Source: Pseudomonas lurida (GTDB taxonomy: Bacteria; Pseudomonadota; Gammaproteobacteria; Pseudomonadales; Pseudomonadaceae). From it: a DNA stretch of 64,000 nucleotides. A program made the position numbers and the translations under genes. The notes beneath the pieces are model-generated. The model was not told the DNA's origin. It did not search any database and saw nothing but the letters and a program-made list of their open reading frames with translations. Positions 4,964 to 14,080 of the stretch are shown piece by piece; the first letter of the stretch is position 1; each line of letters begins with the position of its first letter. Location of the stretch: the NCBI RefSeq assembly GCF_013522705.1, contig NZ_JAAMRE010000021.1:1-64000 (forward strand), given 5' to 3'.

Positions 4964-5081
4964 GCAGGGAGTCTCTTATAAAGGCAGGCGGTGGCGCAGG
5001 GGCGCGAGCCTAGCAGAGGAGGGCGTTAATGGGTATGCCGTGGTTTTCTGATGAAAGGGGCTTTTCTGGCATAGGGGCCGC

Positions 5082-5109
5082 TTGCGCGATTACAAAGGTC
5101 TGGTAGAAT
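5082..5109 (+). promoter_or_regulatory. Predicted sigma70 promoter of rpmE
   Basis: TTGCGC at 5082-5087 and TAGAAT at 5104-5109 are separated by 16 bases, about 70 bases before the rpmE ATG. A 6-bp hairpin (TCGACA/TGTCGA, 5134-5149) lies in the leader. Judged by sequence match only. Confidence 0.5.
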
Positions 5110-5179
5110 CCGCGGCCTAATTACGTGCGGTATTCGACAATAGTGTCGAGTGGCGGCACGCTAGCCAGAGGAAGTCACC

Positions 5180-5413
5180 ATGAAAGCCGATATCCATCCA
5201 GCGTACGAAACCATCGAAGTGACCTGCAGCTGCGGCAACAAGTTCGAAACTCGTTCGAACCTGTGCAAGCCACTGGGTACTGACGTATGCAACGAGTGCC
5301 ACCCGTTCTACACCGGTAAGCAGAAAACTCTGGACACCGGCGGCCGTGTACAGCGCTTCGCAGATCGCTTTGGTGCTTTCGGCAAGAAGCCTGCTGCTAC
5401 TCCAGCAGAGTAA
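5180..5413 (+). CDS. rpmE: 50S ribosomal protein L31 (zinc-binding form)
   Basis: 77-residue ribosomal protein L31 bridging the large subunit to the small-subunit head. It is the Cys-containing zinc form: CSCG near residue 16-18 and [10 protein letters not shown] around 36-45. The ribosome-binding site AGAGGAAG lies just before ATG 5180. It is monocistronic in appearance: a promoter lies upstream, and two hairpins overlap the beginning of the next gene. Pseudomonads may also carry a Zn-free L31 paralogue elsewhere; none is in this window. Confidence 0.97.
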
Positions 5414-5418
5414 GGTTC

Positions 5419-5437
5419 AAAAGCCTTATGGGCTTTT
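5419..5437 (+). other. Hairpin with the nuclease start codon in its loop
   Basis: A perfect 7-bp stem (AAAAGCC 5419-5425 with GGCTTTT 5431-5437) encloses the loop TTATG. The ATG at 5428-5430 is the predicted nuclease start codon. It lies 6 bases after the rpmE stop and may act both as a terminator-like hairpin and as a block on translation of the next gene. Confidence 0.6.
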
Positions 5438-6234
5438 ACCTGTGGTTGAAGAAGGCGTCCCTTGTGGGCGCCTTTTTTGTGCCTGGGATTTGGCTGTCGG
5501 CCGTTCAAGCGCAGGCCTTTTGCAGCGCGCCGGCGTCCTTGGTGCAGGTGCAGGTGGCGCGGGTGGTGGATGGCGACACCGTGCGTCTCAGCGATGGTCG
5601 CAGCGTGCGCATGATTGGCCTCAATGCGCCGGAAATCGGCCAGAAGGGGCGCCCTGACGAGCCATTCGCAGTCGCCGCGCGCCAGCGTCTGCAGGCGTTG
5701 GTGCAGGCCAGTGGCGGGCGGGTCGGCCTGGTGCCGGGACGTGAGGCCAAGGATCGCTACGGGCGAACCCTGGCCCATCTATACGGCGCCGATGGCCGCA
5801 ACCTGGAAGCGCAGTTGCTCGCCGACGGCCTGGGGTTTCAGGTCGCGGTCGCGCCGAATGTCGACCTGGTGACATGCCAGCAGGCTGCCGAAGCCAGCGC
5901 GCGCAATGCGCAAAAGGGGTTGTGGCGCCAATCGCCGGTGCGCACGGTGGCACACGTCAAACGTTCCGGATTCGCCGTGATCAGTGGGCAAGTTCGCGGT
6001 ATCGAACGCAACCGTGGCGGAATCTGGATCGAGTTGCAGGGCTCATTGGTATTACGCATTGCGCCCGATCTGGCCGGGCACTTCGACAGTCGCCTGCTGA
6101 AGAATCTGCAGGGCGAGACCGTCGAGGCTCGAGGCTGGGTGCAGGATCGCGCCCGGCGCGGTGGCATTAAAACTCATCAGGCGCGTTGGTTATTGCCACT
6201 GACCGATCCCGGCATGCTGAAAGTGCATCGCTGA
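5428..6234 (+). CDS. Secreted thermonuclease-family (SNase-like) protein
   Basis: 268 residues. The N-terminal signal peptide (about 1-29, ending VQAQA) predicts export to the periplasm or beyond. An SNase fold follows, with the hallmark active-site pieces: VVDGDTVRL, RMIGLNAPEIG and KDRYGRTLAHLY. These provide the Arg, Glu and Arg that staphylococcal nuclease uses to cleave phosphodiesters with Ca2+. A further domain of about 90 residues at the C-terminus resembles an OB-fold. Cys at about 32 and 151 could pair. The gene follows rpmE by 14 bases; its first codons overlap two terminator-like hairpins, so expression is probably limited by read-through or has a different start. No downstream in-frame ATG before the signal peptide end is convincing. 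Confidence 0.85.
   Translation: MGFYLWLKKASLVGAFFVPGIWLSAVQAQAFCSAPASLVQVQVARVVDGDTVRLSDGRSVRMIGLNAPEIGQKGRPDEPFAVAARQRLQALVQASGGRVGLVPGREAKDRYGRTLAHLYGADGRNLEAQLLADGLGFQVAVAPNVDLVTCQQAAEASARNAQKGLWRQSPVRTVAHVKRSGFAVISGQVRGIERNRGGIWIELQGSLVLRIAPDLAGHFDSRLLKNLQGETVEARGWVQDRARRGGIKTHQARWLLPLTDPGMLKVHR
5452..5478 (+). terminator. Intrinsic terminator of rpmE inside the nuclease signal-peptide codons
   Basis: AAGGCG-T-CCC pairs with GGG-CGCCTT across the loop TTGT, and a run of six T ends at 5478. This is a standard Rho-independent terminator placed about 40 bases after the rpmE stop. It is coding for residues 9-17 of the nuclease precursor. Confidence 0.7.
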
Positions 6235-10502: not shown

Positions 10503-11156
10503 ATGAGAAAAGGATTATTCAGGCGAAAAGTCGACACCTTGCTGGGCATCGATATCAGCGACACGGCCATCAGGCTCGTCGAGTTGCGGCTCGATCCCGC
10601 TGGTTACAGCGTCGCAGGGTATGCCATCCACGGGTTGCCCGCCCGGGCGGTGGTAGATGGTGCTTTTTTGGACTTCGAAGGCATCGGGCAGGCCCTGCGC
10701 GCGGCGCTGCCCAGGGTTCAGGCAACGTCCAGGCGCGCTGCAGTGGCGGTGTCGGGCCCTTCGGTCATCACGCGATTGATCGAGCTGGAGGCCGGGCTCG
10801 CGGAGGAAGAGATGGCGGGGGTGGTCGAGAGGGAGGCAGAGCAGTACATTCCATACCCGTTGGATGACATGGCCTTCGACTTTCAAGTCCAGGGGCGCTC
10901 GGTTGCTGACCCGACACGGGTCGAGGTATTGCTGGCGGCGTGCCTGAAGGAACATGTGGAGGCCCGGGAGGCCGTTCTGGCCATGGCTGGGCTGGTGCCG
11001 GCGGTGGTCGATGTTGAAGCGTTTGCAATGGCGCGCGCGAGCAGTCAGGATTTCGCCAGCTTCACGTCGGGCCATCGAGTCGATGGTGCACAATGGGCCA
11101 TGGATGCCCAAGGAATGGGAATCGCCTGCGGACTGGCCCTGAGGAGTTTCGCTTGA
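10503..11156 (+). CDS. pilM: PilM, internally deleted (domain II missing)
   Basis: Cytoplasmic actin-like protein that anchors the type IV pilus alignment complex by gripping the N-terminus of PilN. Here it is only 217 aa against about 354 in other pseudomonads. Residues 1-178 match the usual N-terminal half, including phosphate-1 TLLGIDISDTAIRL, QYIPYPLDDMAFDF and VVDVEAFAM. The protein then jumps in frame to the usual extreme C-terminus (RVDGAQ..., IACGLALRSF). The phosphate-2 motif (VVDIGA type) and adenosine motif (LAGG type) are absent, so nucleotide binding is probably lost. The junction is near 11034-11052. ATG 10503 was chosen because the family starts MxxGLFxxK and a TTTTGGGGAG tract precedes it. 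Confidence 0.9.
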   Translation: MRKGLFRRKVDTLLGIDISDTAIRLVELRLDPAGYSVAGYAIHGLPARAVVDGAFLDFEGIGQALRAALPRVQATSRRAAVAVSGPSVITRLIELEAGLAEEEMAGVVEREAEQYIPYPLDDMAFDFQVQGRSVADPTRVEVLLAACLKEHVEAREAVLAMAGLVPAVVDVEAFAMARASSQDFASFTSGHRVDGAQWAMDAQGMGIACGLALRSFA

Positions 11157-11707
11157 AGACACGTATCAATCTTTTGCCCTGGCGCCAGGCTCGGGCCGAG
11201 CGGCGACGCCGCTACTTTATGGTGTTGATGCTGGTGTTCGTCTGCGTGGCGTTGGTGGTTGTGTGGCTGGCGGACCAGGTCATTGACCAGGCGATCGATC
11301 GGCAGGTGACGCGTAATAATCACCTGGACAAAGATCTCGCTCTTCAGGATTCCAGCATCAAGACCCTTGACGACCTGGAGGCGCAAAGCCAGCAGTTGGC
11401 CGAGCGAATGAAGATCGTGCAGGACTTGCACAATGGTCGCTCTTCCGGCGCCCAGTTACTGGACCAACTGGCGCGTGCGGTGCCGGATGGGGTGCATCTG
11501 CATGAAGTAGTGGCCAAAGGCGATACGGTGAGTATTCGCGGCAGTGCCGAATCCAGCCAGGACATTGCCCAACTGATGCGCCGGCTGGAGGTGTCGCAAG
11601 GCGTCCACACAGCGCGCCTGCAGCACGTGCGCACCGAAGGTGCGAGCGGTGATAACGAATTTCAATTGATGGTGCGCCAGGGAGAATCCTCCGAGGCCCA
11701 GCCATGA
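11153..11707 (+). CDS. pilN: PilN, type IV pilus alignment protein
   Basis: 184-residue bitopic inner-membrane protein that links PilM to PilO. The N-terminus carries the PilM-binding signature INLLPWR at about residues 5-11. A membrane helix follows at about 22-42, then a coiled-coil and ferredoxin-like periplasmic region. The start is TTG at 11153, overlapping the pilM stop as TTGA and preceded by GAGGAG. In related genomes this junction is normally ATGA, so the initiation codon is weakened. The PilM-binding segment is intact although PilM is truncated. Confidence 0.9.
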   Translation: MKTRINLLPWRQARAERRRRYFMVLMLVFVCVALVVVWLADQVIDQAIDRQVTRNNHLDKDLALQDSSIKTLDDLEAQSQQLAERMKIVQDLHNGRSSGAQLLDQLARAVPDGVHLHEVVAKGDTVSIRGSAESSQDIAQLMRRLEVSQGVHTARLQHVRTEGASGDNEFQLMVRQGESSEAQP

Positions 11708-12684
11708 GCCTGCCCAGGCTCGAACTCGGCGCACTCTCTTACCACGCTGCAAAATGGCCCTTGCCTGGCAAGCTCTTGCTCGGCTGCGTCCTGGCCGGTG
11801 CAGTGCTGGCTGTGGGTGAATGGATGCTCTTGAGTCCTGCACGGGCTCGGTTGCATCAGGCACAGGCGCAGGAGGGGATTCTTCGCCAGCAACTCGCGCA
11901 GCAGAGCGCCGTAGCGGCCAGCCGTGACGTGCGTGCGCGGCAGCTCCAAGTGATGCAGGCCGAGGCCGATGCACTGTTACGGCTGTTGCCCGGCGGGTCC
12001 GAAATGCCCGGCCTGCTGGAGGATATCGCGCGGTTGGCGCTGGCCAATGGCGTGTTAGTCGAAAGGGTGGCTCCGCAGGAAGAACAGCCGGCGCCGCTGT
12101 ATACCGCGCAGCCGATGCAGATCGGCGTCACGGGTGCCTATCACGATCTGGCCATGTTTATGAGCGCCGTTGAAGGGCTTTCGCGACTTACCACGGTGCA
12201 TGAGATGGACGTGCAGCGTGAGGGCCGATTATTGCGCCTCGATCTGCTGGTCAAGACGTACCGGCGTGATCAGGCCGCCGTTGGGGCTCCGGTGCGTGAG
12301 CGACCACTGCCGCAAGGCGCATCCTTCGTCTATCAAGGGGCCGGTTTGCGCGATCCGTTCCAGCCGTCGACCTTGCAGGTTGAGCATAGGCCTGGGCGGC
12401 GTGCGCCTGCGCCGGATCTGGAGCGGCCCAGAGGCCCTCTGGAGCGCCAGGCGCTGGAGCGCTTCCAGATGGTCGGCACGCTCGCGCGAGGCGCGCAGAC
12501 CTTTGCGCTGTTGCGCGTGGCGACCGATGTGTATCGCCTGGCGCTGGGCGATTATCTCGGGCCGGACCACGGGCGCGTTACGGCTATTCATGACAGCCAT
12601 ATTGAAGTGGTCGAGCTGTTTCCCGATAAACAGGGTGCGTGGCTGGAGCGCCCCAGAACCCTCGTGTTGAACGTCAACTCATAA
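11704..12684 (+). CDS. pilO: PilO-PilP fusion protein
   Basis: One 326-residue frame covers two normally separate proteins. Residues 1-187 are PilO: short cytoplasmic end, membrane helix about 23-43, coiled coil, and a periplasmic domain ending LLVKTYR. Residues 188-206 are a linker. From 207 on is the PilP domain: FVYQGAGLRDPFQP, then RGPLERQALERFQMVGTL, ALGDYLGPDHGRV and WLERPR. PilP is usually a lipoprotein; the fusion has no internal signal peptide or lipobox, so the PilP part is tethered to the inner membrane through the PilO helix. It overlaps pilN by ATGA (11704-11707). PilP normally links PilNO to the PilQ secretin, so the fusion fixes a 1:1 ratio. Confidence 0.9.
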   Translation: MSLPRLELGALSYHAAKWPLPGKLLLGCVLAGAVLAVGEWMLLSPARARLHQAQAQEGILRQQLAQQSAVAASRDVRARQLQVMQAEADALLRLLPGGSEMPGLLEDIARLALANGVLVERVAPQEEQPAPLYTAQPMQIGVTGAYHDLAMFMSAVEGLSRLTTVHEMDVQREGRLLRLDLLVKTYRRDQAAVGAPVRERPLPQGASFVYQGAGLRDPFQPSTLQVEHRPGRRAPAPDLERPRGPLERQALERFQMVGTLARGAQTFALLRVATDVYRLALGDYLGPDHGRVTAIHDSHIEVVELFPDKQGAWLERPRTLVLNVNS

Positions 12685-12697
12685 CGGAATCGAACAA

Positions 12698-14080
12698 ATG
12701 AAAAGGACTTTCTCGTCCTTCGGTGTGGCGCTATGGATAGCGTTCACAGCACCGATGGCTGCCGCTGTGCCCAACCGTATAGATCTTATTCAACTGCCGC
12801 CGCCGGGTGGGGCCATGGCGGGGGCCTACAGCGGCGACAAGCTCACGCTCAACTTCCAGAACATAGAGCTGCGCGCGGTATTGCAGCAGATTGCCGATGT
12901 GGCCGGCCTTAACCTGGTCGCCAGCGATGACGTCCAGGGTTCGATCACACTGCGCCTCAAAGATGTGCCCTGGGATCAGGCGCTGGAGCTGGTGTTACAG
13001 ACCAAGGGGTTGGATAAGCGCATTCACGCCGGCGTATTGCTGGTAGCGCCCGCCGAGGAATTGGCAGCCCGCGAACTGCTGACGCTGGAGTCGCGCAGGC
13101 AGATAGCCAACCTCACACCGCTGCGGCGGGAGCTGTTGCAGGTCAATTATGCCAAGGCAGCCGATCTGGCCAGGCTGTTCCAGTCGGTGACCGGCCTTGA
13201 AGGGGCCACCGACGAACGCGGTTCGGTGGCGGTGGATGAGCGCACCAACAACATCATCGCCTACCAGACCGGCGAGCGGCTCGACGAGCTGCGGCGCATC
13301 GTGGCGCAGTTGGATATCCCCGTGCGGCAGGTCATGATCGAAGCGCGGATCGTGGAGGCCAACGTCGATTACGACAAAAGCCTGGGAGCACGCTGGGGCG
13401 GACGGCTCAATCGCGGCAACTGGCAGGCCGGTGGCATTCCAAAGCCCCTGCCCGATGGCGTAGAACCGCCGGAAAATCCGCCTGGCTCACCGTTTGTCGA
13501 CCTCGGCGCAATAGCCGGCGCGTCCGGCCTGGGTGTGGCTTACATCACCGACAATGTGCTGCTGGACCTGGAACTGACGGCCATGGAAAAGACCGGCAAC
13601 GGCGAGATCGTTTCCCAGCCCAAGGTCGTGACCTCCGACAAGGAGACCGCGCGCATCCTTAAGGGCACCGAGATTCCGTACCAGGAGTCCAGCTCCAGTG
13701 GCGCCACGTCGGTGTCGTTCAAGGAGGCCTCGCTGTCGTTGGAAGTGACCCCTCAGATCACCCCTGATGACCGGGTGATCATGGAAGTGAAAGTCACCAA
13801 GGATGAGCCGGACTATCTCAACAGGCTCAACGACGTACCACCGATCAAGAAAAACGAGGTCAACGCCAAGGTGCTGGTCAAGGATGGCGAGACCATTGTG
13901 ATCGGCGGAGTTTTCTCCAATACCCAAAGCAAAGTGGTAGATAAAGTGCCATTTTTGGGCGATGTGCCGTATCTTGGCCGCCTTTTCCGGCGCGATGTGC
14001 TGGCGGAGAAAAAATCCGAGCTGCTGGTATTCCTGACTCCGCGTATTATGAATAACCAGGCGATTGTTGTGAGTCGTTGA
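12698..14080 (+). CDS. pilQ: PilQ-type secretin, short form without AMIN domains
   Basis: Outer-membrane secretin pore of a type IV pilus or DNA-uptake machine, 460 aa against about 700 for typical Pseudomonas PilQ. The signal peptide is about 1-23. The STN/N0 domain ([20 protein letters not shown]) starts almost at once, followed by N1 (about 135-210) and the secretin core (about 215-455) with [14 protein letters not shown] and the LLVFLTPRI end. The peptidoglycan-binding AMIN repeats normally found before N0 are missing. This length resembles E. coli HofQ and Haemophilus ComE. It starts 13 bases after the PilO-PilP fusion and ends 4 bases before aroK. Confidence 0.92.

Follow-up and report, generated by a model that had tools for sequence, protein, structure and literature searches.

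A PilM that appears to be cut down to its PilN-docking half in Pseudomonas genomes lacking canonical PilB

The first gene of the pilM-pilN-pilOP-pilQ operon in a 64,000-nucleotide stretch of Pseudomonas lurida DNA (the whole of the stretch analysed, hereafter the window) appears, judging by its sequence, to encode a PilM cut down to the half that docks PilN. The initial annotation had seen in this gene a surgical removal of ATP binding that kept the anchor function. What it did not foresee is that the PilM deletion is one step in a series that comprises the loss of canonical PilB, of PilY1 and of the AMIN domains of PilQ, together with the fusion of PilO to PilP. We consider it probable that, after PilB had been lost, the nucleotide-binding half of PilM was no longer needed and disappeared in three lineages, and that the leftover serves as a PilN clamp in a simplified, PilB-less machine.

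The half-length pilM (10503 to 11156, + strand) encodes a protein of 217 aa, and the operon that it heads is flanked by a divergent gene for a penicillin-binding protein and by one for a shikimate kinase, which we take to be ponA and aroK, respectively. By profile score the product is a member of the PilM family: it matches Pfam PF11104 (PilM_2) with 171.7 bits against a cut-off of 27, at profile positions 1-167 of 340 only, and TIGR01175 with 170.2 bits against a cut-off of 133. When aligned to a profile of the PilMs from the 73 genomes with canonical PilB, it occupies positions 5-180 and 321-355 of 356, and a profile built from 15 short PilMs aligns with residues 6-182 of P. aeruginosa PilM (5eox, 357 aa) and, more weakly, residues 322-357 (19.5 bits). 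These alignments confirm the in-frame deletion proposed in the initial annotation, which had put it at about 135 residues; it in fact removes some 139 (profile positions 181-320 are absent). At the junction (11040 to 11045, + strand) two residues stand in place of approximately 140, the profile jumping from position 180 to position 321 between PilM residues 179 and 182. The C-terminal segment that is kept (11046 to 11153, + strand; profile positions 321-355) includes the terminal helix ACGLALRSF, which is invariant in all 15 short PilMs.

A PilM match was found in 118 of 119 Pseudomonas genomes (G076, with no match, stands outside the 118, and PilM lengths were counted from the start of the match), and the short form of 217-218 aa occurs in 15 of these. 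Of the 80 best named loci, 27 carry the short form (L045-L071) and 53 a full-length PilM; the 27 represent at most 26 genomes, because L046 and L047 both belong to P. costantinii LMG 22119. The named short-PilM loci include P. rhodesiae, P. costantinii, P. grimontii, P. canadensis, P. poae and P. trivialis, and also P. cedrina, P. yamanorum, P. spelaei and P. proteolytica, species that presumably represent the P. fluorescens and P. gessardii subgroups.

Predicted structures point to the same boundaries. In a comparison of an AlphaFold model of the short PilM (mean pLDDT 84.6, pTM 0.80) with one of a full-length relative (mean pLDDT 89.0, pTM 0.86), everything from strand 196-202 through strand 317-319 of the relative was unmatched in the short protein, and the C-terminal helix was present in both. 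From these models we take the missing piece to comprise subdomains 2A and 2B in full, and the retained half to consist of what we assume to be subdomains 1A and 1C together with the C-terminal helix of 1A. The segment that carries the phosphate-2 and adenosine motifs is indeed among the residues lost, as the initial annotation had said. Among the closest known systems is the alignment subcomplex of the P. aeruginosa type IVa pilus (PilM structures 5EOU and 5EOX), which has the same operon order as the window; the window model superposes on 5eou_B, the PilN-bound form, with Z 24.7 and an rmsd of 3.1 over 206 residues at 51% identity. Unlike P. aeruginosa PilM, the window protein is without the 2A/2B half, its phosphate-1 loop is decayed, and the genomes that carry it are without canonical PilB and PilY1. 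Structure alignments omitted loci L047 and L070 and took in 23 of the 53 full-length named loci. The short model fits ADP- and AMP-PNP-bound forms less well than the PilN-bound one (rmsd 5.0-5.1 over 214-215 residues). We rejected the idea that the short PilM is fixed in its PilN-bound conformation as a prediction bias, because the full-length control has the same preference (1.4 over 342 residues for the PilN-bound form versus 2.9-3.1 over 350-351 for the nucleotide-bound forms).

The ATP site has suffered in the retained half as well. In column counts that set the 73 PilB genomes against the 15 short-PilM genomes, the loop GIDISSTSVK, invariant in 73 of 73 of the former, is replaced in the window by GIDISDTAIR (10545 to 10574, + strand). 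Across the short clade S20 has become D or E in all 15 genomes, S22 has been lost in 14, and K24, the counterpart in the alignment of the ATP-contacting Lys-26 of T. thermophilus PilM, has been replaced in 10 (by R in nine and by M in one) and is still K in five. A different set of 20 reduced PilMs, described below, shows D17 changed to E in 18 and K24 changed to R or N in all 20. With positions 181-320 absent and the phosphate-1 loop decayed, the window PilM falls short of a complete actin-like fold, in which both halves of the ATP site are present.

The docking motif in the partner of the retained half is intact, as the initial annotation had maintained. The adjoining pilN (11153 to 11707, + strand; 184 aa; PF05137, 57.9 bits) begins with a TTG start that overlaps the pilM stop, and its docking motif INLLPWR can be read in the sequence at 11165 to 11185 (+ strand). 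All 118 PilNs carry this motif, in the exact form in 73/73 PilB genomes and 15/15 short-PilM genomes and in the same form or as close variants elsewhere. The first residues of PilN lie in a channel between two of the subdomains of PilM (PMC6325625), and we infer that the remaining half of PilM still anchors PilN.

Further along the operon the machine has been rebuilt. A single ORF (11704 to 12684, + strand) encodes a PilO-PilP fusion of 326 aa, with PF04350 at residues 50-187 and PF04351 at residues 203-322 of the one protein; such fusions occur in 12 of the 15 short-PilM genomes and 25 of the 27 named short loci, and in none of the 73 PilB genomes. The fusion would remove the lipoprotein start of PilP, which would then be tethered by the membrane helix of PilO. 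The pilQ that follows (12698 to 14080, + strand) encodes a secretin of 460 aa in which Pfam recognizes N0, STN, Secretin_N and Secretin domains and no AMIN domain. PilQ measures 460-465 aa in the 15 short-PilM genomes and 455-464 aa in the 27 named short loci, as opposed to 680-748 aa in the 72 readable of the 73 PilB genomes (in G038 the locus stops at the contig end). Two AMIN stretches are found in PilQ of P. aeruginosa PA7 and one in that of G073; the PilQs of the window, G061 and G071 are devoid of them. The PilQ of G073 (L255 3768-5486), with 573 aa and its single AMIN, is intermediate between the two-AMIN and the AMIN-free secretins.

Other type IVa pilus components are retained. PilT, the pilotin PilF (TIGR02521) and PilA (PF00114) are present in every one of the 15 short-PilM genomes, and in the genome of the window pilA, pilC and pilD are adjacent without pilB, PilC being recognized as T2SSF and PilD as Peptidase_A24; together with PilQ, these complete the set PilA, PilC, PilD, PilT and PilQ of a type IVa pilus. 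A search with PF00114 matched PilA in 28 of 30 genomes and missed G012, which has PilB, and G106. In the latter, a PilB-less genome, a pilin-like ORF adjoins pilC by eye despite the miss, and the PilT match (G106:C1:83925-84848) contains one in-frame TAG, such that its retraction ATPase may be broken.

The extension ATPase is the component that is missing. None of the 15 short-PilM genomes has a canonical PilB above the TIGR02538 cut-off, a criterion that a strongly diverged PilB could escape, and none of them has PilY1. Across the 118 genomes, 73 have canonical PilB, and in 73 of these 73 PilM is 351-362 aa long. The 45 genomes without it comprise 15 with the short PilM, 20 with a reduced PilM of 225-312 aa, two with PilM fused to PilN and eight with a full-length PilM, so PilM is shortened or PilN-fused in 37 of 45. 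PilY1 is present in 76 genomes, namely the 73 with PilB plus G034, G075 and G080. These last three were counted as PilB-less and are doubtful members of the eight, since G034 has a PilB fragment and G075 and G080 are 87% and 86% complete, respectively. The other five (G021, G061, G071, G073 and G088) have kept a full PilM without PilB and PilY1, and loss of PilB thus does not force the deletion at once. For this association we rely on counts and origins only. A claim of significance was dropped because Fisher's test (3.7e-23) ignores kinship, and with kinship taken into account an independent-pairs test had too few events to reach significance.

There are five TIGR02538 matches in the genome of the window, none of them on contig C4, where pilA, pilC and pilD sit. 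Those on C25 and C17 were rejected as PilB because their neighbouring ORFs, inspected by eye, mark them as GspE of type II secretion; C22:318758 is PilT; C22:216277 is an orphan GspE-like ATPase and, by eye from its neighbouring ORFs, not PilB; and the match on C19 is weak (48.7 bits). The orphan GspE/PilB-like ATPase (L149 8251-9915, - strand, on C22) has an MshEN domain, and its neighbours look by eye like glycine-cleavage (gcv) genes. It shares 68-77% identity with counterparts in five genomes, three PilB-less and two with PilB. We rejected it as a PilB replacement peculiar to the short clade, as it also occurs in the PilB genomes G049 and G005 (68% identity).

Two gene trees bear on how often, and when, PilM was shortened. 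In a tree of PonA fragments (116 rows; G045 and G025 have no such fragment and were left out, and 52 of the 99 inner branches are weak) the short-PilM clade has a single origin with support 99. G071, which has a full PilM, no PilB and a PilQ of 465 aa, joins this clade with support 90, and G061 and G073 lie nearby. Loss of the full-length PilM requires three changes on the PonA tree (113 rows), and when its well-supported (starred) branches alone are considered, one change each is forced for the short and the reduced forms. By these counts the independent events are few, which weighs against the model favored below. The PilQ tree likewise gives the short form one origin (support 100), and it gives the reduced form two, both of which are forced by starred branches.

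The tree suggests an order of events in the lineage of the window, in which PilB and PilY1 were lost first, PilQ was then stripped, PilM was halved thereafter, and PilO was finally fused to PilP. The fusion is placed last because three genomes inside the short clade (G030, G032 and G052) have PilO and PilP as separate proteins. Nucleotide binding seems, then, to have gone after the motor and not to have been trimmed from an otherwise normal pilus. The proposal of a targeted removal of ATP binding stands in part: the segment is gone and the phosphate-1 loop has decayed, but the deletion belongs to a wider remodelling.

Elsewhere in the genus, reduced PilMs occur in the pair G106/G116 and in a group of 18 genomes with G007 and G096, and their junctions differ. 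In G106, whose protein matches PilM_2 at positions 1-168 only, a separate deletion has removed both subdomains; its sister G116 retains more. In G007 (L130 869-2116) a PilM without the nucleotide-binding half runs, in one ORF, from its C-terminal helix VACGLAM into the PilN sequence LNLLPWRE, such that one protein contains both the PilM_2 and the PilN domains. The same PilM-PilN fusion is seen in G096 (L140 995-1981), where the gene is frameshifted near its start. The layout of the G007 fusion, and likewise that of the frameshifted G096, is the layout of GspL/EpsL of type II secretion, which has a PilM-like cytoplasmic domain. The window encodes PilM and PilN in two ORFs and not as the single polypeptide of GspL. 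The window model matches 1yf5 with Z 11.7 and an rmsd of 4.0 over 161 residues, a Z that unrelated actin-like folds share.

The model that we favor can be outlined as follows. PilM homologues bind the extension ATPase (PMC8389850), and the nucleotide-binding half of PilM may have served the coupling of PilM to PilB. With PilB gone, this half would have been left without partner and use, and the remaining half would clamp the cytoplasmic N-terminus of PilN without nucleotide. Such a clamp could hold together the PilNOP-PilQ bridge of a simplified machine, a pilus or an uptake device, which would run perhaps on PilT or on the conserved orphan GspE-like ATPase. Tentatively, and as a possibility that we would rate somewhat below even, the model could be extended to at least three Pseudomonas lineages that independently made their type IVa pilus PilB-independent, by means of a nucleotide-free PilM clamp (PilN-fused in one of them), mostly a PilO-PilP fusion, a stripped secretin and another ATPase; the ATP site of PilM would then serve PilB only.

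In T. thermophilus the K26A variant of PilM does not bind ATP, and yet the traffic ATPase is still bound and stimulated by it (PMC6325625). By these data motor binding does not require ATP, which makes the link from PilM ATP to PilB an indirect one and counts against the model. The Pseudomonas genomes offer a natural deletion series that separates the two halves of PilM, in which, among the genomes compared, the nucleotide-binding half is lost only where PilB is missing.

Several elements of this picture are already known, namely the lack of pilB in P. putida, short gene sets such as HofMNOPQ, and PilM-PilN fusions. P. putida WCS358 has a pilA-pilC-pilD cluster without pilB (PMC4509608), as does the genome of the window, and the accessible portions of the reports on WCS358 and KT2440 make no mention of changes in PilM, PilO-PilP or PilQ (PMC4509608, PMC12918733). 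In Campylobacterota pilM and pilN are fused in most type IV pilus clusters, and PilMNO homologues are kept in the FcpMNO flagellar cage; this is another phylum, and the sections of the study at hand report no loss of the nucleotide-binding half of PilM (PMC11870540). In the accessible open-access literature we found no published account of the PilM deletion, of its link to PilB, of the PilO-PilP fusion or of the PilQ change. A gene list for P. fluorescens PCL1751, as far as the portion seen extends, names pilA, C, D, E, F, G, H, I, J, M, N, O, Q, T, V and X, with pilB, pilP and pilY1 absent (PMC4599888). Gene lists that give plain names, pilM or pilQ for instance, mask the remodelling.

The model has to be weighed against other explanations. 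First, the PilMNOPQ bridge may have been repurposed for a non-pilus role, such as DNA uptake, the function annotated for HofMNOPQ, or some other envelope scaffold, with PilM reduced to a mere structural plug; we regard this as rather doubtful. E. coli does have a similar short set, which resembles the window in gene order, in a short HofM (259 aa), in a HofQ of 412 aa without AMIN and in a HofN with INFLPWR, and which differs from it in that HofO and HofP are separate genes. HofM, however, is matched neither by the Pseudomonas PilM profile at E 10 nor by Pfam at E 0.001, and its kinship to PilM is taken here from annotation and gene order. The repurposing of such proteins has a precedent in the Campylobacterota flagellar motor, of which PilMNO homologues are a part (PMC11870540, from the part available). 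A pure scaffold, on the other hand, would need neither the PilA and PilT kept in all 15 short-PilM genomes nor the pilC and pilD of the window's own genome. As a separate observation on E. coli hofM (L267 4973-5752), no Pfam family is assigned to it at E 0.001, though the control-genome search with PF11104 exceeds the cut-off in E. coli.

Second, the pilus system could have become vestigial after PilB was lost, with the pilM gene slowly on its way out, which we judge to be unlikely. The losses of PilB and PilY1 would fit such a course, as would the relaxation of two of the genes. In NG86 medians over pairs with dS 0.05-1.2, dN/dS of PilM is 0.26 in the short clade (98 pairs) versus 0.074 in the PilB genomes, and that of PilO is 0.29 (59 pairs, mostly PilO-PilP) versus 0.175; this would also be expected of early decay. 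Both genes are nevertheless constrained, their values being well under 1, and neither PilN (0.125, 44 pairs, versus 0.143) nor PilQ (0.117, 104 pairs, versus 0.147 in the PilB genomes, whose PilQ includes the AMIN part) is relaxed. Nor is the lost half of PilM normally a loose one, since in PilB genomes the two halves, with dN/dS of 0.080 and 0.086, are equally constrained. Gene breakage points towards decay in that pilM is disrupted in two of the 27 named short loci (the other 25 are open frames) and in that the G096 fusion is frameshifted. In L054 (P. cedrina DSM 17516, 5001-5651) pilM has a premature stop and in L070 (P. kitaguniensis MAFF 212408, 5001-5650) it is frameshifted, the clade being otherwise intact in each case. 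Against decay, all 15 genomes have the protein of 217-218 aa intact, 59 of its alignment columns are invariant despite identities to the window protein of down to 57%, and PilA, PilT and the pilotin have all been retained.

P. putida provides arguments on both sides of this question, in the portion of the study available to us. No pili were seen there, save that a fimV mutant displayed a pilus-like structure in under 1 in 1,000 of its cells, and tagged versions of PilO, PilQ and PilT escaped detection, as would befit a vestigial system; its surface spreading, however, is absent in a pilA mutant, and the species has no clear PilB homologue (PMC12918733). A PilB-less system can therefore be active. 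Spreading that depends on pilA without a clear PilB would imply either another pilus extender or a pilin that acts without one (PMC12918733).

Third, the lost half of PilM could be supplied in trans by a separate gene. This is most improbable: the missing 142-residue segment, used as a query, matched nothing in the window's own genome or in the 14 other short-PilM genomes and found PilM in five of five full-length controls; the phosphate-1 loop of the retained half has decayed as well; and a search of the window's genome with PF11104 for a second PilM matched the window gene alone, which also disposes of a full-length pilM elsewhere in the genome. Finally, the chance that a sequencing or assembly error produced the deletion is negligible, as the short PilM recurs in the second genome of the same species (97% identity), in 13 further genomes of the genus and in the 27 named loci from many species.
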